A stretch of DNA of 64,000 bases from Branchiostoma floridae. Lineage: Eukaryota > Chordata > Leptocardii > Amphioxiformes > Branchiostomatidae. Shown one piece after another: positions 1 to 47,985 of this stretch. The notes under the pieces were generated by a model. The model was not told the DNA's origin, ran no database searches, and was given only the letters and a program-made list of their open reading frames with translations. The position numbers and the translations under genes were made by a program. The first letter of the stretch is position 1. Every line of letters starts with the position of its first letter. The stretch lies in NCBI RefSeq assembly GCF_000003815.2, contig NW_023365802.1:23333-87332 (forward strand). Reading direction: 5' to 3'.

Positions 1-713
1 AGGGAATCTGTAAGGGAATTTAAGCCCTTGACGCGTCAGGCACACAGAAATGGTTCGTTTCCGCGAGATTTGAGGACATGTAAAGGACTGTACACGTCTC
101 GTTTGCAGGCATGAATCTCCGGATTTTGAAGGACATGTTTAATTGCCAGGACTGTGTAAGTCAGTTTCCATCCTGGAAATGAGGCTTTTCAGACAGTGTT
201 GGTCAATAAAATTTAAGCTTACACTTGAGTACAGTGCTGCTATTTTACTCCTATGATATAACTAAATATAAAGCGCCCCCACGACCACCCCCGGTCAAGG
301 TACAGGTAAGCGGTAAGAACTAATGCTACATCTTTGTCGTTGCATGTGCACTTGATACCTCGTATGCTAAGAAAAGTCCATGGAAATCAGCGCATTCATC
401 AATATATGTAATAAGATACAACTTCCCTCACCACAATCCTTTATGACTTTAAAATCTTCCCGGTTCTCCGTCTATTCAGTAATAAGACTTGTTTCTATGA
501 AAATTCGAAACAATTTTTTTTTTGGTTTCATTTGGTGAAAAAATGACACGCATTTTTAAGCCTGAGTATCTCCATAAATAGGTTACTGGAATATTTTCCT
601 CTCAATACATTTAGGTTTCACTCTGTTCTAATTTTAACTGAATTAATAGAGTATGTGCGACTTATTCCAGAGTAAATTCGTTTTTTGTGTGCGTGTTTGT
701 GTTTGTGTCGGCA

Positions 714-1110
714 CGTATCATTGATGCCCCCTAGCGATTCTTAGCTATCTTTGATTTTCCTGCAATAGTGCCTTGAACTGATGGGAGGCAATTTTGATCC
801 ATACAGGGAATCCTGATGTTCTAGAACAGGGGTTAGCGTGAAAATCCGTATGAACTCATTGTGATAGTGATTCAGGTGTCATATTTTGGATAGCTTCAAT
901 ACAACATTTACTGTCCTCGATGTTAAATGATTTGTATGGAAAACAATAACGTTTCGTTTCTTCAATTTTCTTGTGTGTGGTTTGATATATCATATTCAAG
1001 ATTAAAAAATAACATTGAAGCTTAACAATAGTCATTGGGGCATGTCGAAATGATTTGCAGTTGTGGTAGATGATGCTAGGTGACGCTTTCGATCCGGAAG
1101 AAATATTTTA
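714..1110. repeat. Dispersed repeat / old segmental duplication, copy A
   Basis: This stretch aligns with 15629-16920 over several hundred bases. Shared blocks include the start TCATTGATGCCCC, the middle TTCTTGTGTGTGGTTTGAT and the end GATGCTAGGTGACGCTTTCG. A shorter block near 320-400 also matches 13470-13540. Copy A has no insertion at TTAA 1022-1025, whereas the other copy carries an 870-bp element at that site. Partial copies occur at 33826-33860 and 39806-39950, so this is a repeat family rather than a single duplication. No gene is visible in 1-1640. Confidence 0.7.
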
Positions 1111-1639
1111 CAATCCAGAATAAGAGCAGAAAAATGGACATGCACAATTTATCTGTGCTGAACATATGCAAATGTGCAGGCACACAAACAAATGAACGCA
1201 GTACATTTTGCATAGATTGGGGTGTTCCGGAAGAGTCCATTCATGTCCTGAGGGGTGGGGGGCTTTTTAAAAACAACTTGCAGTGTCATGATGTTCGGTA
1301 TAGGTCAATTTCTGCAAAATGTTAATGTGGAAGAGAGCATTTTTGCATTGGGATCGGATGTATTGAAATTCACCGTGTTTGCTCACGAGCAAATGCCGCG
1401 GCCTTTTTAGTTCATAAAATATACTTGCTAGACTTAGTGCAACTGACATCTGACCTCACGCGCGTTAAATTTCTTTTAAACATTAAAAAAAGGTCTAGAG
1501 TAAAGGTAAGGGCTCAAACAATACTAAAAGAAGATGAAGTTTTCAGCTTGAAGAAAACAAACAATTTACACAGTACCTGCACTTGCTTGTTTAAAATTAT
1601 CGAAACTTGTGCTTTTTTAATGAAATAAGGTTTATCGCA

Positions 1640-1700
1640 ATATTCTACTATATTCTACAAACATTCTACAAATATTCTACAAATATTCTACAAACATTCT
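1640..1700 (+). repeat. Short tandem repeat, about 10-15 bp unit
   Basis: About five imperfect copies of ATATTCTACAA stand directly before the recognisable part of the retroelement fragment at 1700. They may mark the truncation junction of that element. Confidence 0.6.
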
Positions 1701-2890
1701 CTTTTGGGCAAGACACAGTTGACATAGTCCAGTCCTACTGCTACCTGGGCTTGAATATTACTGCATCAGGCAGTTTCTCTCTTGCACAAAAACAGCTCTC
1801 ACTCAGAGCACGAAAGGCCATGTTCAGTCTCAAATCGCTACTCCGTTCGTCTGTCTCTCCGAAGTGCCTACTTAGAATATTCGACACTTGTATTAAACCA
1901 ATACTTCTGTATGGATGTGAAATCTGGGGTAAAGACCCTATAAATGACACCTCACCTATTGAAAATTCCCATAACCGCTTCTGCAAGAATGTACTTGGTG
2001 TGCACAGAAACAGTAGCAATGTAGCAGCCAGAGCAGAACTAGGAAGGTTCCCACTAGATTTAGATATATCCCTGCGCACTGTAAAATTCTGGACACACTT
2101 AACACAACTAGACTCCGATACACACCCGCTACAAGTTGATGCTCTCCGATTACAACATACATCTCTGACAAATAGTCGTCGACGGACATTATTACAGCGA
2201 GATCTTCGATCACGGTGGCTACTCATACTTATTATATGGTGATAGCACTAACTATGATCCTCAACATATATGCAATCTATTAAGGACAAGGTTTTCAGAT
2301 ATGTATATTCAAACTTTCTACCATAATCTGTCTGCCGATACTGGTAAGCTTAGATTTTACAGAAAATTTAAAACCGAATATTGTATAGAGAAATATCTCG
2401 AACTTTGTGACTTTGAGCAGCGTTCAGCTACCAGTAAGATTAGAATTAGTGCCCACCCCCTGGAAATAGAAAAGGGGAGATATATGAAGCTACCTGTGTC
2501 CGAGAGGATTTGTAAATATTGCCCCTCAAATGCTGTGGAAGACGAGAGTCATTTTATCACTAATTGTTCTTTTTATGATGATATAAGAAAACAACTATTT
2601 ATGAGTGTATCCAAAATACACGCTTACTTTCCAACTATTCCTGACAATGAAAAATCAATCCTACTATTAAAATCAAAGAACCCACACATTATAAAAGAAG
2701 TGGGTAAATTCGTCTTCCACTGCCTAAAGAGAAGAAGTCTAACCCAACAAAACCAGTATAATGCACACTAGCATAGCATATAGTCATAGAATGTAGTTCC
2801 TAGCACCTTTGTATTTTTCCTTATTTTACATGTTGTTTGTACCTGCAATTAGCCCTCGAGCAAGAACTTGCAATAAACATATCATTATAT
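1700..2890 (+). mobile_element. 5'-truncated, frameshifted non-LTR retrotransposon
   Basis: Two open stretches in different frames (about 1700-2242 and 2301-2771) together look like the C-terminal third of a non-LTR reverse transcriptase. The first contains YLGLNIT, then the thumb-region pattern CIKPILLYGCEIWG. The second contains KLRFYRKFKTEY, RISAHPLEIEKGRY and a Cys/His cluster (ICKYC...EDESHFITNC), typical of the C-terminal domain of such elements. The catalytic palm (FADD box) and any endonuclease are missing. A frameshift around 2200-2300 separates the two parts, so the element is dead. A tail with AATAAA lies near 2873. The clade cannot be decided from this fragment; CR1/L2-like is plausible. 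Confidence 0.75.
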
Positions 2891-3772
2891 ACTATAATTT
2901 ACTCACATAATAAGGAGATTATAACAGTACTTAGACCTAGCTAGTTATCGTACTGGAAATAGTTAAATGGCTTCACAATATTTATTTTTTTCTCTTTTGG
3001 AAAAATAGGAACTGGCGATTACAATAACCAATAAGTCAAGCATAGGAGCTCCTGTGGAAGAGTACATTCCTCTATAAGTGGCTTCTTCGGTACGCCCTGT
3101 TTTGGACCGTAATTAATTCACATTTGTTTACTTTTGGGGAGAATATACTGTTAAAAGCGCAGGGGTGATTTGGACAAGTCCACTGTCGCATTAAGAGCGG
3201 GATAGGTAAATACTAGTATACCGAATTTCGAGCCTTTCTAGTTCATCTTGTTTTTCCTATTGTCACTAAATATTACTCTAAGGGTAAAATATTTTTTCGT
3301 ATGCTTTTTTTCTAATATAGTCAATTAAAAAGCTTTTTATCTTATTTCTACGAAGGTTACATATCACATGTTTGTTCTTGATCCATCAATAATCTCAATG
3401 ACCTTATCTACATATTAGCAGACATGTAATAGCCATCTTTCCACAAGTCGTTGTGTGTGACCTTGCATTAACCTCTGTTTACCTCTGTTTACCCAATCTC
3501 TGGCTGGGATTTATGATCTGTCAGCGGGCAGCAACTACCGGTCCGCCCGCTAGGAGCGCGAATTAGTTAAGTTATATCTTAAACGTAGCAAACCACGTCA
3601 TTGCGCATATAAGGTCGTAGAACACAGTATTTTTCAGCGACCCCAATTTCTATGACGTAGGGGTAAAAAAGTAGTGCGGTCGAAATCTGGATGCGTCTGT
3701 AAACACTCTCACTTGTGAAAGGCATTAGGGGCATCAACTTATATAAAAGCATAATGTATCGACTTTCAGATA
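2891..3772. other. No gene seen
   Basis: AT-rich noncoding sequence. The only structure noticed is a short inverted pair GCGGGC...GCCCGC at about 3524-3550, which looks like part of an old repeat. Confidence 0.5.
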
Positions 3773-5546
3773 GTATGTATAAGATAATAATGTTTGTCCA
3801 TTCTGTGTGTCAATACACCTTTACAGCTTACTGCGTCTGTCAGTCGGTTGCAATTCCGCAGTGCCCGCATGACCCCACTTAAAATATGGCGTAATCGTTT
3901 TTCAAACCGGTAATTTTTGTCCAGTTTGTCTAATTCAAAAAATGCATTATATTTTTTTTTCGTCGATATCAGTCACCTTGTTGTCGGTAACTATCAAAAT
4001 CTCATAGATCGAAAACTGTGTGCTGCTACCGTAACGTTTACGTCAGTGGTTAACTTTGACACTTGTCAAAAAGTCACGTGAAGGGACGGGTGGACCGGTT
4101 AGACAGCTTTTACAGACAAGGTGGGACTCTAAACAGCACTACAAGCTTGAAGATCTCTAACCTTGTCGACAATTTTGTCTCACAGGTGGGCAAATTTTTA
4201 CTGTATGAATTCTATGTGAAGAAAGGAAGTCTTTTTTCGCTGTGAAAAGGGTTTGAAAAGTTACATTAAAACGTTTTGACACGCATACGGAGAAAGTATT
4301 ACTGCTCTCTCTTAATGATGTGTAAAACGACCAGGGCAGACAGAGTTCTGACAAGAGGCTTTTCTGACAGAATTCTCATCGTTTTCAAAATTACGACTCA
4401 TTCGAAAGTTACTAAAATCTTGTTCTCGGGGCATTGTAATGGGGGGGGGGGGGGGGTTACATGCGAAAACGTTTCAAGGCGAGACATACATTAGTGGGCT
4501 AAGTCATAGCCACCGTATTCTAGCTATGCTGTAGTTTGTGTGAAAGTACGTGACCATACTACAAAGTTGTACGTGGGCGAGTCAAAACATAATGCCAGTA
4601 GTTTTATAGCAAGCTCTTTTCTTTCTGAATTTTAACTTATTTCATAAAAGAAGGACCTTGCTTTATATCCAATTACCTGAGTGTATGTATAAAATCATGA
4701 TGTTTGACCATTCTATGTATCAATACGCATAACCTTAACAGCTGACTGTCTTGGTGAGTCGACTGCAATTCCGCAGGGTTCCGCATGGCCCCACTTTAAA
4801 GAGGTCGTTTTCTTTTTTTTTCCAAAACGATATTGTTTTGTTATTTTTACTTATTTTGTAGGTTTTACTCGATTTCAACATATTAGTTTGTCCAGATTGA
4901 AAACGGTACTCTACTATAGTTTTTTTGCGTCAATATCAGTGACCTTGTGGTCCTTAACTATCGAAATCCCAAAGGCAGAACACTGTTGACGTCAGTGGTT
5001 GTTACCTTTGACACTTATCGCAAAGTAATGACGGGTGGACCGGTTATACAGCTTTTACAGACAGGGTGGGACTCTGATCAGCACTACAGATTTGAAGACC
5101 TCTTACGTTGTCGCGAATTTTGTCTCACAGGTGGGGAAATATTTTCTATATAGATTCTAGGTAAAGGAATGAAGTTGAGAACAGCGATTGAATAGTCACA
5201 TAAAAGGTTTTTTTCACGCATATGTAAAAAGTAATACTACTTCCTCATAGTTATATGTAAAGCCACCAGAAGGGACAGAGTTCTAATAGAAGCCGTCCCT
5301 GAATGAATTCTTCTAGTTTTCAAAAATGCGAAATGTCCCAAAGTACAATGGAGGGGGTGGGATGGCGGCTGTGGTACGAAAACGTCATAGAGATTGTATT
5401 CTAGCTATGCTGTAGTTTGTGTAAAAATACGTGACCATACTACAAAGTAGTACGTGAGCGAGGCAGAACATAATGCCAGTGGTATTATGACAAGCTATTT
5501 TCTCTCCGAATTTTAGCTTATTTTAAAAAGGAATGACCTTCCTATG
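3773..5546 (+). repeat. Imperfect tandem duplication, about 0.9 kb unit
   Basis: Two consecutive diverged copies. 3773-3880 matches 4684-4800 (both with CAATTCCGCAG). 3963-4200 matches 4928-5150 (GGTGGACCGGTTA, TTTTACAGACA, TTTTGTCTCACAGGTGGG). 4516-4665 matches 5396-5546 (GTATTCTAGCTATGCTGTAG). The offset drifts from about 965 to 880 bp through indels. No convincing coding potential is shared between the copies. The first copy carries a G run at 4441-4457. Confidence 0.8.
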
Positions 5547-6368
5547 AGACCAATCGCATTTAGCTTTTACCTCGACCTCGTAATTGAGCCAAGTCATGCT
5601 GTAACTGAAAATAAAACCATACTGCGACACGTAAGCAAGCTTCTCGCCAAACCTATGCCAAAGGTGAAACCTTGACATGCCAGTCGTTTGACTCACAATA
5701 GGCCTGGGGGAACGGACCGATTTGGCCTCATTCATGTAGAAGTGAGTCCACGGTGACTCAGCACCCTACTACCTCTAACATTTCTGTCTGATATTATAAG
5801 GCAGTATCAAACTCACCCCTGGGAATGACGGCTTTAAAAAATATACCCCCACGTGGACAATATTTTCAAGTAAATCTGGTTTTCTACATCATATTTTTTT
5901 TCAAATATAAAACTTGTCCACATTCCAAGGCTAGTAATAAGTATAATTAGTGAATATGCTTAATGGTATTGCCATGACTTTAAAAGAAAAACAATAATTT
6001 CAGAAGTGCATTCAACGAGAAAGAAAAGCCGCATGTCAACTGTAATGATCTATTTTGTTCTGATACTCGACGAACTAATCTCCAACTGACATGTGACACG
6101 TAATGCAATTTGTTAACTCCAAATCTGTCTGAAGTGTAACATATCCACATTGCGACACATTGACCATAAGGCAATAAAATAAAAACGTGAAGTAAATAGT
6201 CACTGACGAAAGACGACAAATTTTGCCTAAATGTATGGCCGTCTACAAAACTTCGTAAATTGCTTAAGGTCTCTTTGATGACTTTCTTCTTCCCATAGAC
6301 TTCTATGTTATAATTCGTGTTTTACATGGTCGCGTTTATAATGAAGCTACATAAAATGTCAGCAGATT
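5547..6368. other. No gene seen
   Basis: Noncoding sequence with no recognised repeat, motif or splice-flanked open frame. Confidence 0.5.
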
Positions 6369-8577
6369 TTTACCTCCATGAAATGTCATGGAATGGAGGT
6401 TATATTTTCTGTTAGGTGTCTCTGTCTGTGTAGATGTTTACTCAAGAACGGCTGGATGGATTGGTGTCATAATTGTTGTGTTGGTGAGGTGTGATGAAAG
6501 CTTGAATCGAGGAGATATTGGGAGCCGTATCTGTCGGTATAATCGATGTAATAATATCAGAAATCACCCCTATATTTGAGATGTATTGGTACAGGCATCG
6601 TGCTTTATGTGTTTGTTAATGGGCTTAGCTGCAAGCAGATAGTGAGGTAATTTCTATGACAGCTGATGGGGAACCCCGATTAGTTTTATTCATGTCTGCT
6701 TAGGATCCTTTCAAATATTTGTAACAGTTGCCCCTGCCTGCCCAGTGCAACATTCTAGAACATCTGTTTTGGGAGGCTGACAATTTTGATTGTGATAATA
6801 AATTGCATGTATCATTGTATGTACTTGTGCGTTTGGGGGCGCACTGTGTTATATTTTGTTTGTGTTGTTTGATGGTTTGTGGTGCGTTTTGCGTAACGCG
6901 GATGTTGCGTGAGTATGTAATTGGATGTATGACATATCTAATATGTGGATGTGTTAGGTAATCCCTTATCTGAACAGGTGTGCGTATAGAAACTGGTTAG
7001 GGTAATGCAACTGTTAAACGATGCTGGGCAACTGTTTGCCTATGCTGGGCAACTGTTTCCCGATGCTGGACAATTTGAATATGATAAATAACTTTGTATG
7101 TAGCCACTTGTGCCTTTGGGGACCTGGTGTGTTAAACTTCGTTTGTGCTGTTCGATTTTGTGCTCCGCGTGGCTTATATTTTTTTAATGCTGATGTTGTG
7201 TTGGTAAGTACTTGCATTATTATATATCGGGCATCAACTTGTCCCCGAATCCTACATGTAGCTATTGGTTGTCGGATATTTCATGTCCTTTTGGTTGTGT
7301 TGATGATGTGTTTGTATCCTGTATTGTATTTCTTGTATTGCCGTAGTGTTTTTGTCATATGTCATATTATGACAAATCATACAGTTGCGATTTATCCCAG
7401 TATGTAGATCTTAATGCCTGTCTTGTAAAATGAGTGGTTACTGTCTGTGGTTTTCGCACCTATATTTTGTTCCCGTTTGCGATATTGATATATGGTTTGG
7501 TGTGCCCAGTGTACACAGTCGTTATGTGTCACTGTCTGTGTAGATATACTCAAGAACGGCTGGGTGGATTGGTTTCATACTGGTTGTGTTGGTGGGGTGT
7601 GATGAAAGGTGGAATCGATGAGATTTTGGGAGTTGTATCTGTTGTTGTAATTGATGTTAAAATATCAGAAATCACCCCTATATTTGAGATATATTGGAAC
7701 CATCATCCTGCTTTATGTGTTTGTTAATGTGCTTAGCTTCAAGCAGATGGTGAGGTGACAGCTGTTTGGGGAACCCCGAGTTTTTTTAATACGATAATTA
7801 GTTTTATTTATGTCTGCTTAGGATATCATGGAGATGTGAAGCGTAAGTATAATTGTAAGAAGTTGAGGTACATTTAACGATAATGCTTAACAGGTATGGA
7901 TGTCTCACATACTGTACTGCTAATTTGAGTGACATGGTGATTAAAATGCCATTAGGTCCTCTCATCTGGGTTGGGTGTCAGAAGTTTTATGGGCGACACA
8001 GTTGTTCTGATTTTGTTACGATAAGGGACAGTTGTTAGTTGTCTCTTTCGTAGCCAATGGTACTTGTTTTTTAGCAGACGGGGTTGGCGCCAAGTATTTA
8101 TCTTACAGTTGGTGTAGGGCTGTCAGAGGAAAGTGTGCATCTCATTTTTGTACCGTGTGAACAGCTGATGTTATGACATATTGGTGGAAAATCAAATCAC
8201 AATCTGACTAAAGTTGGCCACATCCCTTCTTCTTTCTGAGTTTTAAAACTTCCTCCCACCACACAGCTTTGAGGCACATAGTCGAACCTCAATAATGCTG
8301 ACAACCTTAGACATTTTAAATGCCAAACATCAAGCTTAAGGACACCACGCTACCATATGCCGTCGACCTCTTAAACGCACATTACACAATTGTCACATTT
8401 TGATAATTACTAATCAGATGGACATCCTCTGTGTCATTAAATAAATACACCACTACTTTCCCATAACATTTATATTATATAACCATTACTATCAAATACA
8501 ACCGACTATAAACATACATACCATCCACAAAAAAGCAATAAATATTTCATGGAGGTATGAGGTCCCCGAACTCTAGT
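6369..8577 (+). mobile_element. Nonautonomous element, possibly Helitron-type
   Basis: The left end is TACCTCCATGAAATGTCATG and the right end has ATTTCATGGAGGTA, an inverted match of 14 bp. The right end then continues with the TCAT/ATGA mini-hairpin, GGTCCCCGAACT and CTAG followed by T, which fits a Helitron 3' end (hairpin, short spacer, CTRR, host T). A second terminus with the same GGAACTCTAGTT ending is at about 62620-62640. Inside are two direct copies of a 250-bp block (6436-6685 and 7545-7805, both with AGAAATCACCCCTATATTTG) and a second internal duplication (about 6770-6960 versus 7070-7250). No Rep/helicase coding is visible. Exact ends and class are uncertain; no clear 5' TC was identified. 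Confidence 0.4.
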
Positions 8578-9640
8578 TCATTCTATTTTGAGCAAATTTA
8601 CTCTATATCATGAAAAAAAAATTGTCAATGACTAGAATCCATGGGTTTGTTGTTTATAGCAATTACAAGCCACAATTAGTCAATCCCCGCAAAATGCACT
8701 TTTTCCTTGCTAGCGTAAAACCGCACCACTCAGAGCCTAGGACTGTGTACCTCCGACCTAGCGCGCGGCTGTCAAACTTTACCTGCTACTTTCTTCAGTT
8801 ACAAGCAAGCTTTCACCAATCTAACTTTTGATATCAGTTCGGCTGGCCAAAAGGCAATTTATCACCGCTAAAAACATGCGTCCATGCAGCCGTTCAGTTT
8901 TTGGCTCGGATCTAGTTTAGGGTACCCACTCGCGGAGTAATACATCAATGAGACCTTAAGTAACTTTTATGTCGAGTTTATCTGTACCTGGACGCCTAAC
9001 CATCGTTATGGACGTTTGACTTATTTGTTTAATTGAAGAGTGTGGAAGGCCAATGCTAGGTATATATTTTCAACAATCACTTAATGTGTTATTATCTAAT
9101 AGCCAGCCGCCGCGGACAAATCAGAAGGCCATATTCCATGTTGGTTATGAAGCCGTTACACATAGATTCCAGCCAGGCAGTTGTTAAACAAAATCAAAAC
9201 CGGTGTTGATTTTGTTCTCATTTATCGATAAGAAGAAGCGATATACAGTAAAGTAGCCAATCAGAATAGCACATAGCATGGAGTAAAGATCAGACCCCGC
9301 AGGGAGGAATGATCATAAATACAGCAACGTAAGACTAAAAGTTTGAAAAGGCTTGAGATGCCAAGACTGCAATGTTGCCAAAATTTTCTGTGGAATTTTT
9401 TGTTTCAAAATGCAACCTGTAATCTCCTTACAAATGTATGTGCCAAAGGACAAATGTGAATATTCAGAAATTCGACAAAGGAATTCACACGTACCAAGGC
9501 AGGGATATCTTACGTCATACAGCAGTTGGCAAGTTTGGGAAGGCTATATGATAATAAGGCTAATGACCCGTATATGGTGTCATAACGCATGGTCCTTTGC
9601 TAGAACCACCAAATAAAACAACCCGTAATTAACACGCTTT
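8578..9640. other. No gene seen upstream of the small peptide gene
   Basis: Noncoding flank. Open frames here lack recognisable composition or splice context. Confidence 0.45.
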
Positions 9641-9648
9641 TATATAAG
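9641..9648 (+). promoter_or_regulatory. TATA box of the small secreted peptide gene
   Basis: TATATAAG lies 36 bp before the ATG at 9684. A start site about 30 bp downstream (near 9671-9676) would leave a very short 5' leader. The leader also contains CATTAG|GT at 9671-9678, which could instead be a splice acceptor for a further upstream noncoding exon, but the box makes a local start more likely. Confidence 0.6.
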
Positions 9649-9683
9649 TAAACTATAACTTTTTACCTTGCATTAGGTGAAAG

Positions 9684-10144
9684 ATGAGGGGAAACTTGAA
9701 GCTCCTCCTCCTGCTGATTGCCTTGGCGGCCATGATGCCGGATGGTGCTGATGCTGGAGTGATCCTCCCCAAACAGGATGGTGACGACAACAACATCCGG
9801 GCCAATGTAGAGCGCAAGCCTCGTGACCTGGCACCACGTACGAGCATTATAACATACTAAATCTTTATGGCTAAAAACCACACTTACATTTTTATAGTGA
9901 CAATTAGACGAAACAATATCACATACATATATACTTGATGTACAACAACTCAAAAACATAATTTATACTTGTAAGTTTATTATGAGCATTTCTATATTTG
10001 GTGTGAAGTTATCAATGCTAAATGCTAAAAGTTGTTCATTCATAATATTTTGACGACGGCACTTTACTATCTAATATTGAAACAGTACTGTTCACCCCTG
10101 TAGGTTGCCTTTGCGCCCTGGACCCCCAATGTTGTTCTGGCTGA
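9684..10144 (+). CDS. Small secreted cysteine-rich peptide precursor (2 exons)
   Basis: Exon 1 is 9684-9837 and exon 2 is 10104-10144, with a GT-AG phase-1 intron (donor C|GTACGA, acceptor TTCACCCCTGTAG). The joined frame gives 64 residues. Residues 1-24 are a textbook signal peptide: MRGN, a Leu/Ile/Ala core, then GADA as a likely cleavage site. Residues 25-51 form an acidic then basic propeptide with VERKPR, a possible processing site. Exon 2 supplies the whole cysteine part, RCLCALDPQCCSG then TGA, so the framework is C-x-C-x5-C-C. Secretion and a disulphide-linked mature peptide are inferred. I do not recognise the family; a host-defence or signalling peptide are both possible. A TATA box lies just upstream and AATAAA 93 bp after the stop, so the unit looks complete. 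The donor is weaker than consensus, which is the main doubt. Confidence 0.68.
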
Positions 10145-10236
10145 AGAATGGTGACAAATCATCATGAACAGGGCATATGTTTCCTGACTTCCTTTACATT
10201 AAATCACTGTAGTTTTAAGCACATCTTACAAATTAG

Positions 10237-10242
10237 AATAAA
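10237..10242 (+). terminator. Poly(A) signal of the small peptide gene
   Basis: AATAAA, 93 bp after the TGA at 10142-10144, on the same strand and at a normal distance for a short 3' UTR. Confidence 0.5.
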
Positions 10243-10429
10243 GTTTGCCTACATTGTACTAGCTTTTTCAAGGTTGCAGCATTCATTTTTTCTTCTTCTA
10301 GACTATTCTGTACAGTCATTAATAAGGTTGTAGCATCGATGTTTTGTTTTTCTCTCGACAATTAAAATCCCTCTGGGGAATTATTTGATAAATAGCTAGA
10401 TGGCTATAAATTTTGAAACACATGTGCAC

Positions 10430-11120
10430 AATTTGCACTTTCAGTTTTGGGTGTCAAAAGTCAGAAAATGAGTAGACAGTTATTTTGTGCTTTCCCAACT
10501 TTCAGTATATCATGAACTTTCAGAATAAACAAATGACTACTTTATAACACGTAATTATCCCAGTCGGCCTAAGAACAGCATATATACTTCACATAAATGC
10601 GTTTTTATTTAGTTATGGCATGACATATATGCCATTAGAAAACTGTTTTTTTAAGTTTTCCCTAAAATTTAGAATTTTTCTGTTTAAATATACGTTGTAA
10701 AGATAACATCACTTTAATGCGATACGATCATCTAACAGCATTATCTAAAAGAACAACGATTTGAAAGTGAATGTGAATGAATTGATTTGACATGAATTGT
10801 TGCCACCAAAGCGTATGGCCTTTACCTTTCGATACGGTCTATAAGAACGTCATCAGAACAAGCGAAGAAGCTGACTTTTAGAAATGATATTATGAGAAAC
10901 ATGTAAAATTGACATTATCTGGACAGACGCATTTGCAGATTTTCTTAGTTATTCCATTATCTGTACTCCTATCAATTAAGGTGGCAATAAATTACGGTTT
11001 AAGGACCAAATCCTTGTCGTTCTGGTGTCTTACATGGGACGTTTGCATAGTAATTATTGTATGAATTTAATTATCTGGTGCTTTTTATCAAAACAATTTT
11101 AATCAGTATACTTTCATCCA
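10430..11120 (+). repeat. Inverted paralogue of 18230-18690
   Basis: Matching blocks in opposite orientation include GGTGTCAAAAGTCAGAAAA (10449 here, reverse complement near 18670), the AAGAACAG block near 10570 versus 18550, GTAAAGATAACAT (10697 versus 18470) and ACAAGCGAAGAAGCTGA (10858 versus 18320). The pair brackets the 11-18 kb interval in inverted orientation. No coding is apparent. Confidence 0.65.
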
Positions 11121-11439
11121 ATAAAGTCAATTGAAAGTAACTACCGAAAAATAAACTTTTGAGCACATTTGCGAAATTTGACCACAATTCACCGAGATGA
11201 ATTTTTTTCTTTCCGTAGCCCTGGTACCCTCCCAGTACGCCCTATTTACATTCAGTGCATCATCTTCGACTTCGGTGAATGAATGCTTTATGCAAATACA
11301 AACCCGATTTTTTTAGCTTTTTAGGAATATCATTCTTTCAGCCTTAAACTGTGGGATTTCTAAGGACTCTGAGAGGGTATATAAAAACACTATAACAAAA
11401 AGTAGCTGGATGGTTTTAATTATTCGGCTATTCATAATG

Positions 11440-11612
11440 GTGTATTTGTGTGTTTGTGTGTGTTTGTGATTCTGTGTATGTGTGTGTGTGCACGTTTGTG
11501 CGCATGTGCGTGTGTTTGTCTATTTGTTCATGTGTGTGCATGTCTGTGATTTTGTGTAAGTGTGTGACTGTGTGTGTGCATGTATGTGTGTGTGTCTGTG
11601 TGTATGTATACT
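11440..11612 (+). repeat. TG-rich microsatellite
   Basis: Interrupted (TG)n with TGTGTTTGTG and TGCATG variants. Confidence 0.85.
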
Positions 11613-12796
11613 AAGTTCCTAAGGGAATAACATTGAGACAAATCTGCGTTTTGATCCAGTTACCTCTGGGGTCTGGGTCAAACACCTTACCGATAGCGCC
11701 ACCTGATGTCACAATTATCTGCACTCTTGGTACACTATCTTGGCTGTCTGCTAAAGTATAGCGTTCCTCAAGAACTGAGTAAATGATAATGATACGTTCG
11801 AATGAATAACCTAATAAAAAGAACTGTTGCGTATATCTATCTTTCCGAACGTTGCGTAGTAAACGGTAATTGGTACTAGTAATATTAGATATACGCAGTT
11901 ATTGATTTTGTTGTGTGTGTCTTTGGGGTAACGTTTATCTCCCCCTCCGAAATGTCAGATTGGTACAACCCTGCCAATGCCCACGGCAAAAAAGGGACTA
12001 TTTGTCTCCTTCTGCCTGAATAGATGCGGTCACGAGTTGTTTTAGACCGTACCAGTTCCCAAAAGCCTCTACATGTTCACAATGGAGTGTTTATTATATA
12101 CGTTTCACGCTTATTGAATAGCAGATTGCGTTTGAACTTTGAAACTATCGCATGTTCCTAGCTTATTAAAGTTAGTTGAACACAGGCATAGGCATACCCT
12201 GATATTTGAGGTCACTGAATCCTTAAGTGAACAAAGTGAAATTGCATACATGAAGCATATCTAGCGTCTTTTTTATATTGATAAATTCAGATTATGTATA
12301 TTAGTTGGAATAATCAGGGCAATGTATGAGTTTATTGCTTATCTCAAGTGAGTTGATACAAACTACCGCAGTCTCAAATTATGTAGTACAGGTAACAGGG
12401 AACTAAGGTTGAGAAGAAGCTTACATCACCTAACCAGTCACTAAGGCACAATTTTGTTCAGAATTTCAACAACCTGTTCTCATATGACCGGTGCACATGT
12501 CCAGTAAGCATCACATCATCACCACAAATAAGCAAGAAGTTTATGTTTATGACTGACAATGGGATCTATTCAATATTATATACATGTCGCTAAAGATTAC
12601 GATTAAGTCAAACTACTCTAAGATTAGCAAAATATACATTCAACCTGCCTGAACTTCAAAAGAGTGACGTTTTCCTAAACGTGACTCCAGCTGTCTTTTA
12701 CGTACGTGAACACGTCCCTTTTTTACGATCGGTCAATTATCTAGTGGTGTTTAAAATGGAGGCTCGCCTGTCTTGTGTCAAACTGACACAACTCCG
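11613..12796. other. No gene seen
   Basis: Noncoding, AT-rich, without a recognised repeat or splice-flanked open frame. Confidence 0.45.
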
Positions 12797-20226: not shown

Positions 20227-23200
20227 CTGGAAAACAAAAGATATGTGTTTGTTAGTTTGCATATCTCACATAAAATCGCCCCATGGCGTAAGACGTTAGG
20301 TATGGACTGAACAGTACAGGTTGCACATTCGGACAGATTCATTATGCAATATTGCTCCGGCCTTCTTCTTAATATATGTAAGCAAGTTTTGAAATAACCA
20401 ATAACTGCAAGAACTCTACATTACTATTATACTTACTTTTTCTGGTAATTTTTCCTACATTATATATGCGATTAACACCAACAGTCATTGTTATTTATGG
20501 AAGTTTATATAGATTTGTAGCTAACGTTTGTTTACCGGATTCATCTTTCTCATCCGGCTCCGGACAGGTCCACAGTTCGTCTTGATCCTTGATGGGTGGC
20601 TGTTCTCCTTTCTCTCCACAGATCACCTTGTAGCACGACGCTTCGTTCTGGTCACAGATGCAGTTTTGTCCTTTCTCATCTGATACCCAGCTGTCTCCCT
20701 CCTGTGTAGACACATCTGTACGTTATATGTACCTATAAGCACCAATCATGGACAGACTAGAAGATAGCAACGATGGGTTACAAAATTTGTATGAAAAGAA
20801 TATTGCACTGACAAAAAACAAAACCGGATAGAAATTGCGCAAGAAAATGATGAAAGAAAACATGACTAACATTTTTGAAACAAGGGATTATGTAAACAGT
20901 ACATTGATTATTCCTGTCTACTCCCTATTGAGTAATTCTAGTGAGTAGTAATTTGCTTCATTTACATGTATAAGGTATTAGGTATATACATTTAATGCCG
21001 TATAATTTTATACACTAACCTTATGGTCTCCACAGCCCTGGACTCCTGTACCTCGCACTTCGGATGTCCTCTTTCTGGTTGCAAAACCTGAAAAATAAAA
21101 TTTCTTGCCTGTTTATCTGTTTTGGTCTCTTTGTCCCTCCCTCCCCCTCTCTGTCTCTCTCTCTCTATTTTTCTGTCTGTCTGTCTATCTCTCTGCATTT
21201 CTGTCTCTGTCTCTCTCTCTCTGTCCGTTTCAACCTTGGAAATATCCATAATGATTGAGAACTTTACGAAAACATACCTGGATAGACTTCGACTTCGCAA
21301 ACAGTCAGCACACGGCCGTGTCCAGGCAGTCGGATTCCCACATATCGTCCTATCAGTCCGTTGCAATCGATGACAGCCCTGTTCGTGCCAGCGGGGATGA
21401 CGTGATGTCCGCCGCAGCGTGGGTTGTGGTCTACGCGTTCGTCGTCTCCAACGTGGACGGTGAAGCCGTTGAGTCGCTCTCCGCAACAGTCGGCGCGGTT
21501 GATGACGACCACCCACTTGGCTTGGCCCCGCACACCATTGATTTCCACCCGCAACCAAGGGTTTGTCTGTGCCGGAGTGTGAGTGCAGCACTGACTACCC
21601 CAGTTCGGGGCCCTGCAACCGTCAGTTGCTCGGGAGGCATACCCGTTATATGCGACCCCTGACTGGACCGTTGGTTTTCCCAGCGCCGCGTTTTCAGCTT
21701 TAAGACAATAAAACAGGACAAAGTGGATCAAACAAAGCGGAAATAAACACGCTTAAACAAAATTATGGTCAGTTTATAGAATCCAGTTAAACTTTTGGAC
21801 AGTCTTGTGTTCTGAGCAATCGGGATTTCTAAAAGCTAGTAATAATCTAAAAGCTAGTGATAATTGTATCTGGTTACTCACTTTTATAAACCTCCACTTC
21901 GCACAGCGTCAGGATTCGATTCTTCCCCGGCAGTCTGATGCCCACGTACCGGCCATACAACAAGGGACAGTCGACAACACGTTCGGTATCAGTCGGGTGG
22001 AAGCGGTAATGCCTATATCCACACCTCGTGTTCCTCTCCATGTCAGTGTATTTCCCAACGTAGACCTCGAAGGGCGTGATCCGTTCAGAGCAGCAGTCAC
22101 GGCGGTTGACGATGGCGACGTGGTGGACATAAACATCCCTTCCCAAATCGACATACCACCACGGGTCGTTTTCTGGCTTTGTAGCTGTGCAGGAACTGTG
22201 TCCCCAGAGGGGGCTTCTGTTTCCGTCGACAGCCCGAGCGGGGTTTCCTCCCCAGCCCACACTAGACTGAAACGCAGGTCTTCCTGATGCAATGTTTGGG
22301 CCAGTAGCGTCAGCTGTAAATAGCGTTTGTGGAAACGGTTTTATTTTGATATTAAGTGTCTGATATTTTGAGATACAGAGAGATCAGAGTTCACGAAAGA
22401 GAACGCAAAATGAAACATCATGACGAGCTTTCTAAACTAACGTAGTATGTCAATATATTGCAATATTTGGATGCTGGGGCCGGCTACTGAAGGACTCCAA
22501 TCGTTTCGTGTGACACGTGGCATAGCCCCCAATTTCTCAGTGCCGGGAACGAGCTGTGCTGTTCAGCCTGTCATGCACCGGTAAGTAACATTGGACAGAA
22601 TGAGTTCGGATACACTCAAATCCAGGCCGTTATTTTGGCGGTATCGGCAACCGCATTGACGTAGCAATGACGTCATATGTCTGCCATCTTGGGTCGGCTA
22701 TATTGAGTTTTCTAAAAAAATACTTTCTTTCTACATTTCAGTACAGAATCCAACTAGAATGTACTAAAGACGTTCATATTAACATTTTCTTAGAATATAA
22801 AAGGCATTGAATGAATTGAGGTGAAAATAAACTTAATATACCGTCGCTTATGATTTGGTTCGCCATCTTTTATGTTGACCAAATGACGTCATAAAATAAG
22901 CATATATTATGAAAATTTAATGATAAATGTAACATGAAATTACATAATATAGTTTATAATATAGGAAGACAAGTGTTGTTAAAAAAAACATTGAAAACAT
23001 CCAAAATTAGTTGATTTGGTGAAATATTTGTCCGAAACCGGTTTCCATGGCAACACAAAAAATTACAGACTTACTTTATCATTCCAGAATAGCTCCCAAC
23101 TACATTTTATAAAGAGTTACAACGTTTGGTAGCCTTTGCACACGGCACTTACGATGCACTACAAAAGCATTCCAGTGGTACAATCTACTTATCAAAATTT

Positions 23201-28329: not shown

Positions 28330-29084
28330 CGGCCCACCATAGATGCATCGCGTGCTACCAGCGTCACGCTTTCTTCAAAGAAGATTAACAAGACACAAAT
28401 AGAATCCTAAGTAGGAGATATGCTCGAATAGAAGAATGCAGGCCAGAATTGCAAAAGCGGTAACTATTGACTCTGAACGCTTAAAATGTGGCTAAGAGCC
28501 AAGTTAATTTATTCCACGCATTGTGTACTATCTCTCATTTATACGAAATTAAGACGACATTACCATTTGTAAACTCCTATTACTATCATAAACGTAGCTA
28601 TGTATGATAATATAGTATTGAAAGTCAATCAGAGGAAAATATTGTGTGAATGTGTCGGCCTCGAGTAGTGAAACTCGATACGCCACGGCCGCTAAGAGAC
28701 TGACATGCTTATTAGATTCTTAACAAACAAGCTATTTGACCACTGCCCTCCTTACATTCCCCAAAGGGCGGTGCGTACGTTCTTACGGATACGGAAACAT
28801 TTACAAGACACAAAAAGAAGCCAGGATAGGCTCTAATGGCGGTATGCAGTCTAAACTTGCACAAGCGTTTGGTTTAAATTAAAACATCGATAAATGCGAA
28901 GTTCATTTTGTTTTACTCATTATATTTACCCTTTATTTCTAAGAAGTAAGAACTAAGAAGTTGATTTAAACACTAGTTTCTTTTTATGTATAAGAGAATC
29001 TTCATAAATGGAGTGCCTATTTCCATAAACACTTTCAATGTATAAGCAAACTCATGAATACCAAACAAAAAGTCACTTCTACAC
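28330..29084. other. No gene seen
   Basis: Noncoding sequence between the putative lectin promoter and the 38-bp minisatellite. Confidence 0.4.
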
Positions 29085-31220
29085 ACTACACTGATGACTA
29101 CCTCACTAGTGTCACTTGTACATCTACAGTCATGGCTACCTCACTAGTGTCACTTCTACAACTACACTCATGGCTACCTGACTAGTGTCTCTTCTACAGC
29201 TACACTCATGGCTACCTCACTAGTGTCACTTGTACAACTACACTCATGGCTACCTGACTAGTGTCACTTCTACAACTACACTCATGGCTACCTCACTAGT
29301 GTCACTTGTACAGCAACACTCATGGCTACCTGACTAGTGTCACTTCTACAACTACACTCATGGCTACCTCACTAGTGTCACTCAATGTACAGCTACACTC
29401 ATGGCTACCTCACTTGTGTCACTTGTACAACTACACTCATGGCTACCTCACTAGTGTCACTTGTCCAGCTATACTCATGGCTACTTCACTTATGCCACTT
29501 GTACAACTACACTCATGGCTACTTCACTAGTGACACTTGTACAGCTACACTCATGGCTACCTCACTAGTGTCACTTGTACAGCTACGCTCATGGCTACCT
29601 CACTAGTGTCACTTGTACAACTACACTCATGGCTACTTCACTTGTGCCATTTCTACAACCACACTCATGGCTACCTGACTAGTGTCACTTCTAAAACTGC
29701 ATTCACGGCTACCTCACTAGTGTCACTTGTACAGCTACACTCATGGCCACCTCGCTAGTATCACTTCTACAACTACACTTATGACTACCTTACTAGTGTC
29801 ACTTCTACAACTATATCATGGCCACCTCGCTAGTATCACTTCTACAACTACACTCATGGCTACCTGACTAGTGTCACTTCTACAACTACACTCATGGCTA
29901 CCTCACTAGTGTCACTCAATGTACAGCTACACTCATGGCTACCTCACTAGTGTCACTCAATGTACAGCTACACTCATGGCTACCTCACTAGTGTCACTTG
30001 TACAACTACACTCATGGCTACATCACTAGTGTCACTTCTACAACTTCGCTCATGGCTACCTCACTAGTGTCACTTCTACTACTACACTCATGGCTACCTC
30101 ACTAGTGTCACTCAATGTACAGCAACACTCATGGCTACCTGACTAGTGTCACTTGTACAACTACACCCATGGCTACCTCACTATTGTCTCTTGTACAGCC
30201 ACACTTATGGCTACCTCACTAGTGTCACTTGTACAACTATACACTCATGGCTACCTCACTAGTGTCGCTTGTACAACTACACTCATGGCTACATCACTTG
30301 TGTCACTTCTACAACCACACTCATGGCTACCTCACTCATGTCACTTCTAAAACTGCATTAATGGCTACATCACTAGTGTCACTTCTACAACTACACTCAT
30401 GGCTACCTCACAAGTGTCACTTGTACAGCTACACTCATGGCCACCTCACTAGTATCACTTCTACAACTACACTTATGACTACCTTACTAGTGTCACTTCT
30501 ACAACTACAGCCAAGGCAACCACACTTATGTTATTTCTTCTGCTACATTCAAGGCTACCTCTCCAGTGTCACATTTACAACTACTCTCATGGCTACCTCA
30601 CTATTGTCACTTCTGCAACTACACTCATGGCTACCTCACTAGTGTCAATTCTACAACTACAATCAAGGCTACCTCACTAGTGTCAATTCTACAACTACAC
30701 TCATGTCTACCTCACTAGTGTCACTTCTACAACCACACTTATGGCTACGTCAATAGTGTCACTTTTACAACTACACTCATGGCTACCTCACTTGGGCCAC
30801 TTCTACAACTACACTCATGGCTACCTGACTAGTGTCACTTCTACAAGCACACTTATGGCTACCTCACTAGTGTCGCTTGTACAACTACACTCATGGCTAC
30901 CTCACTTGTGTCACTTCTACAACCACACTCATGGCTACCTCACTCGTGTCACTTCTAAAACTGCATTCATGGCTACCTCACTAGTGTCACTTGTACAGCT
31001 ACACTCATGGCCACCTCACTAGTATCACTTCTACAACTACACTTATGACTACCTTACTAGTGTCACTTCTACAACTACAGCCAAGGCAACCACACTTATG
31101 TTATTTCTTCTGCTACATTCAAGGCTACCTCTCCAGTGTCACATTCACAACTACACTCATGGCTACCTCACTATTGTCACTTCTGCAACTACACTCATGG
31201 CTACCTCACTAGTGTCAATT
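29085..31220 (+). repeat. 38-bp minisatellite, about 56 copies, with higher-order structure
   Basis: Unit: ACTCATGGCTACCTCACTAG plus TGTCACTTCTACAACTAC (38 bp). Because 38 is not a multiple of three and units lack stops, the array reads as an open frame with a 38-residue period; these are not genes. A block of 15 units (570 bp) is duplicated: 30426-30650 recurs almost exactly at 30996-31220, including the rare variant CAGCCAAGGCAACCACAC. Some junctions carry CAATGTAC insertions (29382, 29917, 29957, 30114). Confidence 0.95.
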
Positions 31221-31875
31221 CCACAACCTTTCCAACACCCTAGGTACCACTTGACGTTTTCTCTTTCTTTTGTATAATCGGACATGCCTGCCATCGCCGG
31301 AGGTTAAAGTCAAAACAATATTGCATTTTTTTTAATCGAGCAAAAATCCTTATTGCGTTTTACTGTTATAGTTGAAATGTAAATTTTGTCTTATTGGAAA
31401 TCCCTGTCTGCGGGTCCGGAGTGACGACTGTTCGTCCTGGCATTTATCGTTTAAGACTCATGTAATCACTGGCCGGCTATGATATCATTAAATTTTACCC
31501 TAAACGATTCAGAAATAAGTTAATGACTACCTTAATTATGTCGTTGTTAATTACAACAAGTGGCTTGTCAAACTTGAAGACTAATATCATGCGCGATAGG
31601 CAAAGGAATTCTAGTGTCGTGGGAACGAATATTTAGCCCATTGGTATGTCCTGAAGATGGATTACTCGGGACTAGCTTCAAAGTACTTGTGAAGTGAAGT
31701 GTGCCCTTCATATTGAACTTCATGTGTCATTTAAGCTACGACGAGATTATGTATGGAATGTCTTTTAAGCCACTAATCGCTATCTAATATGTGCTAACAG
31801 GGGAAATAATCCTTTTGTTGCTTTCTGACTCGCCCGTGACAGGCCTAACATTAGTTGTGAACATGTAATAGGAAC

Positions 31876-34189: not shown

Positions 34190-35758
34190 TATGCAGGCAG
34201 TGTTGTCATTAAAGGAACAGATGGGGTGTTCTTCTGTATCTGTAGCTGTATCTATATAGCCGCTATAACCGCCGTTCGGCGTAACACACCAGCTTCGCAG
34301 GCACGCGGCGCGGCAGCAGCTGGCTATATTACACCGAACGACTCATTACAAATAACTTTTGCACATCTATCTGCAAGCGTTCTTTAAAACTACCCAGAGA
34401 AGATGCTCCTACTGTACTTGGTGATAACAAATTCCACTCTACGATAGTTCTGGGAAAGTACGAATTTTTAAACACATCAATCCTAGGTTGGTAACTCTGG
34501 TATTTGAAGGCATGACTGTTTCTTGTTCTTTTTTGAGCTGGTATTAGATACTTATCAGTCGGTACGTCCACCAGATTATTGGTCATTTTGTACATCATGG
34601 AAAGTCTGGACATTTTCCTTCTATCTTCAAGTGACATCCACTGCAAATCTGTTTTCATTTTGGTAACACTAGAATCCCTGCTATAGTTGTTTGTGCAGAA
34701 TCGGGCAGCTTGGTTCTGTACCGTTTCAAGCTTGTCTTTGTATACGGGTTCCATACTGAAGTGGCATATTCAAGGTTGGGTCTTACTAGTGACGTGTATG
34801 CAAGTGATTTTACCCTGGTTGGGCATGCCCACAAGTTTCGTTTGATTACTCCCAATGTCTGTTTAGCCTTGGTTGTTATTTTGTTAACATGGACACCCCA
34901 CTTCAGCCCAGTTGTTAATGTAACACCCAGGTATGGTTGGGTTTTTGTGGTTTCTAATGTCTGACCACAAAACTGGTAAGGGGACACATTTTGTGTTCGT
35001 TTGTTCGTTATGTGCATGATATAGCACTTATCAGGATTGAACTGCATAAGCCATTTCCTTTGCCATTATTCCAGGGTGTTCAGATCTTACTGAAGAACTT
35101 GTGAATTATTTTGTGTGGATACCTCTATATATAACAGACAATCATCGGCGAATAACCTCACACTTGAAATGAGCTGGTCTGGTAAGTCGATTATGTAGAA
35201 GAGGAAGAGCAATGGTCCCAGCACAGTCCCTTGCGGAACTCCCGACGCTACTTTAACTGGAGCTGAGGCCTTCCCTTCCACCACTACCGTTTGCTCTTTA
35301 TTTGTCAGGAAAGTCTTCAGCCAGTTAAGTGTAGTACCTTGAATTCCATAGAACTCCAGTTTTAATATGAGTCTGCTGTGTGGGACTTTATCGAAGGCTT
35401 TAGTGAAATCGAGTATTGCTAGATCCACCTGTCTTTTATTGTTCAGTGCCCCAGCTATGTCGTGAACTGTTAAAATGAGCTGTGTTTCTGTGGATCGCTT
35501 TGCTCTGAAACCATGCTGGTAGTCCGTTAGTATATTGTGGCCTTCTAAGTGTTTCATGATATGGCTATGTATAATGTGTTCCAGTAGTTTACAGGAAATA
35601 CTGGTGAGTGAAACAGGTCTGTAGTTACTGGGGATCGCTCTATCTACCTCTTTTGAAAATGGCACATATATTTGCATCTCACCAGTCTTTGGGGATTTTT
35701 CCTGTGTCAAGCGATTGTTGGAAAATGTTGGTTAAAACAGGTGCGATTTCACTGGCTG
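34190..35758 (-). mobile_element. CR1/L2-like non-LTR retrotransposon, 5'-truncated and frameshifted
   Basis: Reading on the minus strand from 35758: ASEIAPVLTNIFQQSLDTG, then NYRPVSLTSISCKLLEH, QHGFRAKRSTETQL, DFTKAFDKVPHSRL, SGVPQGTVLGPLLF, RLFADDCLLYIE (RT palm with the catalytic FADD), then FNPDKCYIMHITN, YLGVTLTTGLKWG, RPNLEYATSVWNPY and LETVQNQAARFCTNNYSRDS. These are the ordered motifs of CR1/L2-type reverse transcriptases. At least three frame breaks (about 35700, 35060, 34740) make it inactive. A GC-rich 3' UTR with paired GCCGCTATAACC / GGCTATATTACACC segments extends to about 34190. The 5' end is fused directly to the CTGTCTG minisatellite, so no endonuclease is present. Confidence 0.88.
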
Positions 35759-45607: not shown

Positions 45608-47560
45608 AGGCCGCACTAGTGACAGGTGCGCCTGCAAAGGTTAGGCTGAACTTGTGAAAAGGTGCGCCTACAAAAATTAAGAAAAAACAAAAGTAAGTTA
45701 AGGCTGCACTAGTGACAGGTGCGCCTACAAAAAAATCACGCAAAAAGGAAAGTAAGTAAAGGTTTGGCCGCACTAGTGACAGGTGCACCTACAAAAAAAT
45801 CAAGTAAAAACTAAAGTAAGTAAAGGTTAGGCTGCACTTGTGACAGGCGCGCCAACAAAAACATTAAGCAAAAACAAAAGTAAGTTAAGGCTGCACTAGT
45901 GACAGGTGCGCCTACAAAAAAATCACGCAAAAAGGAAAGTAAGTAAAGGTTTGGCCGCACTAGTGACAGGTGCACCTACAAAAAAATCAAGTAAAAACTA
46001 AAGTAAGTAAAGGTTAGGCTGCACTTGTGACAGGCGCGCCAACAAAAACATTAAGCAAAAACTAAAGTAAGTTAAGGCTGCACTAGTGACAGGTGCGCCT
46101 ACAAAAAATCAAGCAAAAGGTAAAGGTTAGTCCGCACTAGTGACAGGTGCACCTAAATAAATCAAGCAAAATGTAAAGGCTAGTCCGCACTAGTGACAGG
46201 TGCACCTAAATAAATCAAGCAAAAGGTAAAGGTTAGTCCGCACTAGTGACAGGTGCACCTACAAAAAATCAAGCAAAAGGTAAAGGTTAGTCCGCACTAG
46301 TGACAGGTGCACCTAAATAAATCAAGCAAAATGTAAAGGCTAGTCCGCACTAGTGACAGGTGCACCTAAATAAATCAAGCAAAAGGTAAAGGTTAGTCTG
46401 CACTAGTGACAGGTGCGCCTACAAAAAATCACGCAAAAAGCAAATTTAGTAAAGGTTAGACCGCACTAGTGACAGGTGCACCTACCAAATGATAAGCGAA
46501 AGGTTATTTAAAAGTAACGGTTAGACCGCACTAGTAACAGGTGCACCTACAACAAATCAAACAAAAGATAATTCAAAAGTAAAGGTCAGACCGCACTAGT
46601 AACAGGTGCACCTACAAAAAAATCAAACAAAAGGTAATTTAAAAGTAAAAGTTAGACCGCACTAGCAACAGGTGCTCCTACAAAATATCAAGCGAAAAGT
46701 AAAGTAAGTAAAGGTTAGTCTGCACTAGTGACAGGTGCACCTACAAAAAATCAAGCAAAAGGTAAAGGTTAGTCCGCACTAGTGACAGGTGCACCTAAAA
46801 AATCAAGCAAAATGTAAAGGTTAGTCCGCAATAGTGACAGGTGCACCTAAATAAATCAAGCAAAAGGTAAAGGTTAGTCTGCACTAGTGACAGGTGCACC
46901 TACAAAAAATCAAGCAAAAGGTAAAGGTTAGTCCGCACTAGTGACAGGTGCACCTAAATAAATCAAGCAAAATGTAAAGGCTAGTCCGCACTAGTGACAG
47001 GTGCACCTAAATAAATCAAGCAAAAGGTAAAGGTTAGTCTGCACTAGTGACAGGTGCACCTACAAAAAATCAAGCAAAAGGTAAAGGTTAGTCCGCACTA
47101 GTGACAGCTGCACCTAAATAAATCAAGCAAAATGTAAAGGCTAGTCCGCACTAGTGACAGCTGCACCTAAATAAATCAAGCAAAAGGTAAAGGTTAGTCT
47201 GCACTAGTGACAGGTGCACCTACAAAAAATCAAGCAAAAGGTAAAGGTTAGTCCGCACTAGTGACAGTTGCACCTAAATAAATCAAGCAAAATGTAAAGG
47301 CTAGTCCACACTAGTGACAGGTGCACCTAAAAAAATCAAGCAAAATGTAAAGGTTAGTCCGCACTAGTGACAGGTGCACCTAAATAAATCAAGCAAAATG
47401 TAAAGGTTAGTCCGCACTAGTGACAGGTGCACCTAAAAAAATCAAGCAAAAGGTAAAGGTTAGTCCGCACTAGTGACAGGTGCGCCTACAAAAAATCAAG
47501 CAAAATGTAAAGGTTAGTTCACACTAGTGACAGGTGCACCTACAAAACAATCAAGCAAAC
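45608..47560 (+). repeat. 53-64 bp minisatellite, about 35 copies
   Basis: Unit core CCGCACTAGTGACAGGTGCA plus CCTAAATAAATCAAGCAAAA and GGTAAAGGTTAGT. The first copies are longer (about 62-64 bp with AAGTAAGT) and later ones shorter (about 53 bp). Two- and three-unit higher-order blocks recur (e.g. 46134-46398 and 46776-47200), showing repeated local amplification. Confidence 0.93.
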
Positions 47561-47985
47561 ACTAAAGACCTACACCTATAGATAATGGCAGCAGAATACA
47601 GCCTGAGCCAAAAATGAGCGCTAAAAAAGACAAGCTCCACGCCCTCTGGCTTACTCCAGGGCGAAAACAAGCTGATGATTCAAGGTTGGAAAGCTCATCA
47701 TTACGATAATTTCTTGTTGCCAATAAAAGAACTTAAACTCTATGGAATTACACACCCACCCATCATCTTGCTACTCATCCCTGTCCCATAGTGAGTGAGT
47801 GAGTGTGAGTTGAAACATAACGGTAGAAATTACCCATATCCATAGCACCTGCTGACAATGGTGGAAGAACAAGTTCTGTATCCTGTCACTTGAGGCCATC
47901 TCATCATGACAACAACACTTCTGATGACAACAAATTCCAAACATTCTTTACCTTGAATATATAATTTTATATACATAAATATTAT
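47561..47985. other. No gene seen between two arrays
   Basis: Noncoding, with a short GTGA repeat at 47792-47812. A 72-nt minus-strand AG/GT-flanked open stretch (47849-47920) was seen but not accepted. Confidence 0.4.

Follow-up and report, generated by a model that had tools for sequence, protein, structure and literature searches.

Within the window – by which we mean the whole 64,000-nucleotide stretch of Branchiostoma floridae DNA analysed here, positions 23333–87332 of contig C244 – a signal-peptide exon, a phase-1 intron and a 41-nt second exon of the pattern C-x-C-x5-C-C followed by a stop codon can all be read directly from the letters, as an earlier sequence-only reading had described (Table 1). 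Exon 1, as read from the sequence, runs from the ATG at 9684 for 51 codons plus one nucleotide to 9837. Scored with a generic splice-site weight matrix that has no lancelet training set, the phase-1 donor CAC|GTACGA at 9838 falls at the 89th percentile among the GTs of the window, and the acceptor TGTTCACCCCTGTAG|GTT at 10104 at the 98.9th percentile among its AGs. The spliced product is MRGNLKLLLLLIALAAMMPDGADAGVILPKQDGDDNNIRANVERKPRDLAPRCLCALDPQCCSG followed by the stop codon (10142–10144), i.e. a 64-residue precursor ending in CLCALDPQCCSG. The GC content is 57.8% in exon 1 and 58.5% in exon 2, as compared to 28.9% in the intron and 33–37% in the 500-nt flanks. The C-x-C-x5-CC pattern occurs once in the whole window, both strands included, and no further copy of either exon was found inside it. 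As judged from the sequence, splicing and translation probably yield the tail in the form given here, and we consider it quite probable that the gene is real and a divergent member of a family of small secreted lancelet precursors. The AATAAA that the earlier reading had named 3′ of the gene is present, but the second copy of the gene, described below, has GATAAA in its place, and it is the ATTAAA that is kept in both copies.

Table 1. Features of the window gene and its surroundings, in window coordinates
Feature	Position	Strand	Remark
Large inverted duplication on C244, window share of one arm	1..12588	.	other arm carries the second gene copy
TATA-like sequence named in the sequence-only reading	9641..9647	+	probably not a promoter; window pair only (2/14)
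Candidate acceptor of a 5′ UTR intron (...TTTACCTTGCATTAG|)	9660..9676	+	95th percentile acceptor
Leader GTGAAAG adjoining the ATG	9677..9683	+	part of the 18-base leader search
Coding exon 1	9684..9837	+	signal peptide, variable segment, RKPR-DL motif
Predicted signal peptide MRGNLKLLLLLIALAAMMPDGADA	9684..9755	+	from sequence and family alignment
Segment GVILPKQDGDDNNIRANVERKPR	9756..9824	+	no cysteine here; the corresponding stretch carries the cysteines in relatives
R-K-P-R, furin-type R-x-x-R motif ahead of D-L	9813..9824	+	putative processing site
Phase-1 intron	9838..10103	+	266 nt
Coding exon 2, CLCALDPQCCSG and stop	10104..10144	+	41 nt, C-x-C-x5-C-C
ATTAAA, candidate poly(A) signal	10198..10203	+	kept in both copies
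AATAAA named in the sequence-only reading	10237..10242	+	GATAAA in the second copy

The RxxR-DL family in the lancelet genome

Searching the same genome (513,431,437 bases in 431 contigs) with six protein queries, we found 14 exon-1 loci on seven contigs, a number that is a lower bound: two on C244 (the window gene and its second copy, hereafter the window pair), seven on C15 (exon-1 starts at 1726413, 1730158, 1739314, 3462074, 3464676, 3468448 and 9076189) and one each on C16, C19, C4, C204 and C230. Duplicate records of loci counted before (L001, L002, L024–L031, L036–L038 and L043) were left out of the locus count, L034 and L035 are the two halves of the L021 exon 1 and were not counted separately, and weak exon-1 matches on C14 (E 0.20) and C12 (E 0.66) fall outside the 14 loci. 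Chance does not account for exon 1, which has 13 relatives in this genome; homology is modest, the window exon retrieving its relatives at E-values of 0.0013 to 1.2. The window pair lies far from the other members and its position in the tree is weakly supported.

All 14 loci have an open frame from the ATG (L019 appears to start at the second ATG because the first one is lost). An alignment of 11 members displays a conserved signal peptide, with the majority sequence MKGTMKxLLLLIVLVAMVPDGVVG, then a segment varying in both length and sequence, and then an invariant P-R-D-L; L032, L033 and L039, which lie outside this alignment, carry REQRDL or RKQRDL. By eye, R-x-x-R stands ahead of D-L in 13 of the 14 members, the motif being lost in L016, which has HNPR, and in all 14 a phase-1 GT follows two or three codons after [PQ]RDL. 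The window gene has the homologous signal peptide, the R-x-x-R-D-L and the phase-1 donor after PRDL. On these sequence features, together with the AG|G described below, we define an unnamed lancelet RxxR-DL peptide family; a cysteine-rich core in exon 1 and a cysteine-free tail exon, both common among its members, do not enter into the definition. At the sequence level, the 14 loci bear out the proposal that the gene encodes a small secreted precursor, has a phase-1 intron and is part of a fast-changing family. Of the two exons expected to be conserved, the first is shared across the family; a DNA query around exon 2 found nothing in its own genome other than the window and the second copy.

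The donor of the window gene, which has lost the G at −1, scores 4.0, below 11 of the 12 other members. An alternative phase-1 donor, ATG|GTGACG at 9781, outscores it (95th versus 89th percentile), and its use would remove RKPR and leave the four-cysteine tail unchanged. However, GC is still high up to 9838 and falls there, and in all 14 family genes the donor occupies the position that corresponds to 9838; we regard splicing from 9781 as most improbable.

Upstream of the ATG, the gene had been read as driven by a TATA promoter and complete in two exons. Comparison with the family speaks against both. The TATA motif begins just 43 nt upstream of the ATG and, within 120 nt of it, is found in the window pair only, two of the 14 family genes; all 14 have an AG|G, possibly a 3′ splice site, at −7 to −10 nt from the ATG. 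The corresponding acceptor of the window gene, at 9677 and seven bases before the ATG, is absent from the earlier model. Position 9684 therefore probably lies outside the first exon, and the gene probably has more than two exons. The upstream acceptor scores 6.7 in the window pair and a modest 1.0 to 5.6 in the 12 other members, and a 5′ UTR intron ahead of the ATG exon is therefore likely, not proven; a non-coding 5′ exon would then precede the ATG exon. Across the 513 Mb genome the 18-base leader TAGGTGAAAGATGARRGG is matched exactly at seven sites, all of them in family genes. At one mismatch it has seven matches, two of which are family; the other five (one each on C12, C11 and C4, two on C5) proved to be non-family upon inspection of their sequences. 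The reversed pattern, used as a control, was matched five times in the same genome with up to one mismatch allowed.

The most pronounced departure of the window pair from its relatives concerns the location of the cysteines. All 12 other members have two to six cysteines in exon 1, between the signal peptide and R-x-x-R, with exactly four in nine of them (for L019 the four were taken from the alignment, its signal being shorter and the scripted count too low). In the window pair this arrangement is inverted, exon 1 being free of cysteines and exon 2 having four. A tail exon was found at ten of the 14 loci (L015–L020, L022, L023, L032 and L033, those of L022, L032 and L033 being first spotted by eye), and not one of the ten contains a cysteine. 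Separation of the leader from the cysteine core by an intron, put forward as the layout of such a gene, is thus not the layout of this family. The nine printed tail junctions are AG|AT in phase 1; most tails read D-x-A-S-I-K-T-x-N-E-A or similar, those of L032 and L033 D-N-A-E, and their net charge, estimated by eye, ranges from 0 (L022) to strongly negative, the tails being mostly acidic. In L032 the frame is open through exon 1 and the tail without splicing, and its tail is therefore no independent proof of the intron. The tail exons of L021 and L039 were not found within ~1.5 kb downstream, and a search downstream of the window gene to position 22000 yielded no convincing family-type tail (best E 0.13, on the opposite strand). 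Tail-like exons for which no exon 1 was found lie at C15:1737900 (E 0.78) and C15:2885857 (E 0.0076); the latter, L045, sits in a minisatellite region, the search for its exon 1 covering ~1.9 kb upstream. A relic of the family core that has no signal peptide, DCPPFCKDHDED, is located inside the L023 intron (L040 1307–1342) and is possibly a stray cassette or an alternative exon.

Sequence change is distributed unevenly along exon 1. In the pairwise comparisons of L015, L017 and L023, the core has 12, 13 and 7 changes in 42 nt, the signal 4, 6 and 4 in 72 nt and the spacer 1, 1 and 0 in 57 nt; the introns are 78–93% identical. Since both synonymous and amino-acid change are raised in the core (pS 0.32–0.63, pN 0.13–0.27), there is no clean sign of positive selection, fast local change or the exchange of core cassettes being just as possible as selection in these three loci. 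In the L032/L033 core pN exceeds pS (0.175 versus 0.091), a comparison of small numbers.

The second copy and the origin of the four-cysteine tail

The inverted duplication on C244 pairs 3485–35920 with 89485–109572 in separate blocks of 79–97% identity, and the second copy of the gene lies inverted ~59 kb from the window gene. Identity is 97% in the outer blocks and goes down to 79% in the innermost. The duplication may represent two haplotypes joined in assembly, in which case copy 2 would be an allele in a misjoined contig. Frames, signal peptide, RKPR-DL and splice sites are intact in both copies, which differ by R2K and four synonymous changes in exon 1 and by L57M in the tail (second-copy tail: CLCAMDPQCCSG). 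In the alignment that surrounds them, the main stretch has 89% identity across 1773 columns and a second one 87% across 633. A 315-nt tract from 9720 to 10034 is free of changes, and none of 100000 random placements reproduced such a tract, which makes recent exchange or allelism likely. Protein-altering changes make up one of the five in exon 1 (P=0.11) and two of the six in the whole CDS (P=0.17), neither of which is significant; given this and the likely exchange or allelism, the window pair says little about selection. About 100 nt upstream of the ATG of the second copy there is an insertion of ~660 bp (L002 about 1761–2420), flanked by the short repeat TAACG, of the kind that transposons leave behind; the window copy does not have it.

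Taken by itself, exon 2 has a weaker case than exon 1, as chance alone can generate four cysteines at a low rate. With repeat regions masked, at least four within 20 codons, in phase 1 and behind a good acceptor, were counted in 7 of 611 cases in the window (~1%); behind any AG in the part of the window left unmasked the count is 29 of 6002, and shuffles of window exon 2 itself give at least four in 0.2–2%. As for the ancestry of this exon, its acceptor context ACTGTTCACCCC has 12 nt identical to the context of the L032 tail exon, the match of intron end plus exon having p=0.002 for L032 and 0.068 for L033. The string GGCTGAA is common to the window tail, L032 and L033 (p=0.004 and 0.014 for L032 and L033 in exon-only shuffles; p>0.1 for the other seven of the nine loci) and stands in the window tail one base off the family frame. 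At the protein level, the window tail in all frames did not resemble any of five family tails (all p>0.1). As the nucleotide matches are short and the protein comparison is negative, an origin by frame change is possible, unproven.

For the window gene itself, two readings are close rivals: recent reshaping into a new peptide, and decay of a family copy. Reshaping would have moved the core to the tail exon: the old core would have lost its cysteines, and a frame shift by one base would have turned the ancestral tail into the four-cysteine peptide. We put this forward tentatively, as a rather unlikely course of events; if true, a disulphide-rich peptide would have been born by frame change and retained on both sides of the large duplication. 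A decaying copy would have lost its core, its tail would have been frame-shifted or replaced, and its cysteines would be a chance reading from which nothing useful is made. The cysteine-free exon 1, set against two to six cysteines in all 12 other members, speaks for decay, and the weakened donor, the missing protein-level match, the GGCTGAA out of the family frame, the ~1% chance of four cysteines and the non-significant purifying selection are all in keeping with it. Yet the frames, signal, RKPR-DL and splice sites are intact in both copies, the exon GC is still high and a chance tail with as many as four cysteines is itself unlikely; on balance we give decay a substantial, if minority, chance. 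Decay is compatible with family membership; it competes with the view that this divergent member makes a working peptide. The window copy in this way bears on the birth of disulphide-rich peptides, by core relocation or frame change as against decay.

Predicted processing, possible function and likeness to known peptides

From the sequence and the family alignment, signal peptidase is predicted to cut the precursor after residue 24, behind ADA, and a furin-type protease would cut RKPR|DL. In most members this would release an N-terminal peptide of ~25–50 residues with the cysteines in its first part and rapid change in the residues between them. In the window copy the released N-terminal peptide would be without cysteines, and the tail exon, spliced in the family phase, would contribute a C-terminal piece with four cysteines, DLAPR-CLCALDPQCCSG, which may be trimmed at its Arg and amidated at its Gly; its predicted forms are DLAPRCLCALDPQCCSG or CLCALDPQCCS-amide.

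Where a family combines a conserved signal peptide with a hypervariable cysteine core, its members usually serve as weapons or as locks and keys, and the 14 loci are therefore concrete small genes to test in a chordate, lancelets being basal chordates. Judging by the sequences, the family best fits an effector against changing targets, and our most plausible guess at its role in the lancelet is mucosal or gut defence. The net charge of the post-signal segment varies from −4 to +3 across the family and therefore does not indicate a classic cationic antimicrobial peptide. This range would also suit signalling peptides or pheromones, with the R-x-x-R cut freeing a disulphide-bonded messenger and the window copy yielding an amidated C-terminal one; a small secreted precursor, a furin-type motif and the C-terminal Gly of the window tail are consistent with such a role. 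Variable residues between the cysteines, however, suit the ligand of a fixed receptor poorly, and we consider a signalling function unlikely.

The family has no match in Pfam, the PDB or open-access full text. Neither the window precursor nor the 11 rows of the alignment (L032, L033 and L039 being outside it) matched Pfam at E≤10, a threshold to be read with the HMMER filters in mind, as these drop most matches above ~0.1. The PDB gave one meaningless match by sequence (E=6.7) and none by profile; 130 stretches of viral contigs fitted the pattern of the exon 1 query and none was confirmed; the peptide strings had no match in the open-access full text of 5.39 million PMC papers. No RNA families (at the gathering threshold) and no tRNAs were found in the window.

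The cysteine framework of the window tail had not been recognised in the sequence-only reading. In order of cysteines it does have a name, as C-C-CC is conotoxin framework XVI of the Q superfamily (PMC4278219); the Pfam search at E≤10 gave no sign of homology. This order fits a TATA-driven two-exon gene of the venom-peptide type with an intron between leader and cysteine core, and the open frame, the splice sites and the TATA of that model all exist. The family tells otherwise: TATA is confined to two of its 14 genes, all of which have AG|G upstream of the ATG, the cysteines of the remaining members sit in the signal exon and Pfam has no match for the lancelet gene. We hold the venom-type model to be very unlikely.

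The closest parallel in layout, as opposed to descent, is found in Mytilus CRP-I, for which PMC10138031 describes a non-coding exon 1, a conserved signal and propeptide and a hypervariable cysteine-rich mature part, with a six-cysteine knottin-like C-C-CC-C-C array in exon 4, dibasic KR/RR cleavage and some members that have lost cysteines. The lancelet non-coding exon is a predicted one; most of its family has four cysteines in the signal exon and R-x-x-R, and the window precursor likewise has four cysteines rather than six, with RKPR and no KR or RR. Two kinds of lancelet peptides were compared by description. BjAMP1 of Branchiostoma japonicum has 97 residues with a 24-residue signal peptide and an anionic region followed by a cationic C-terminal peptide released at RR75-76, according to PMC4683396. 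Small size, secretion and a signal peptide of 24 residues are what it has in common with the window precursor; BjAMP1 was dropped as a candidate, the window precursor having 64 residues and no RR. Big defensins also occur in lancelets, and according to PMC12373286, lancelet defence genes vary in presence among individuals, the B. belcheri big defensin gene being absent in 88% of samples. As described in PMC3182236, their six cysteines lie in a cationic C-terminal region, the N-terminal region being hydrophobic. These too are secreted cysteine-rich lancelet peptides; on this description they differ from the window precursor, which has no Pfam match.

Elsewhere, the window holds long minisatellites of CAGA/CTGT type (35775–38589, 48005–49497 and 53231–56848), and a similar-looking array, seen by eye in translations, precedes the orphan tail L045 on C15. 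A 38-bp unit repeated ~56 times and an array of ~53-bp units occupy 29072–31227 and 45636–47567, respectively. By eye, frames resembling exons of an F5/8-type (fucolectin-like) lectin domain lie on the minus strand at 20992–22383, and frames resembling non-LTR reverse transcriptase at 1595–2771 on the plus strand and at 34329–35731 and 57231–58787 on the minus strand.
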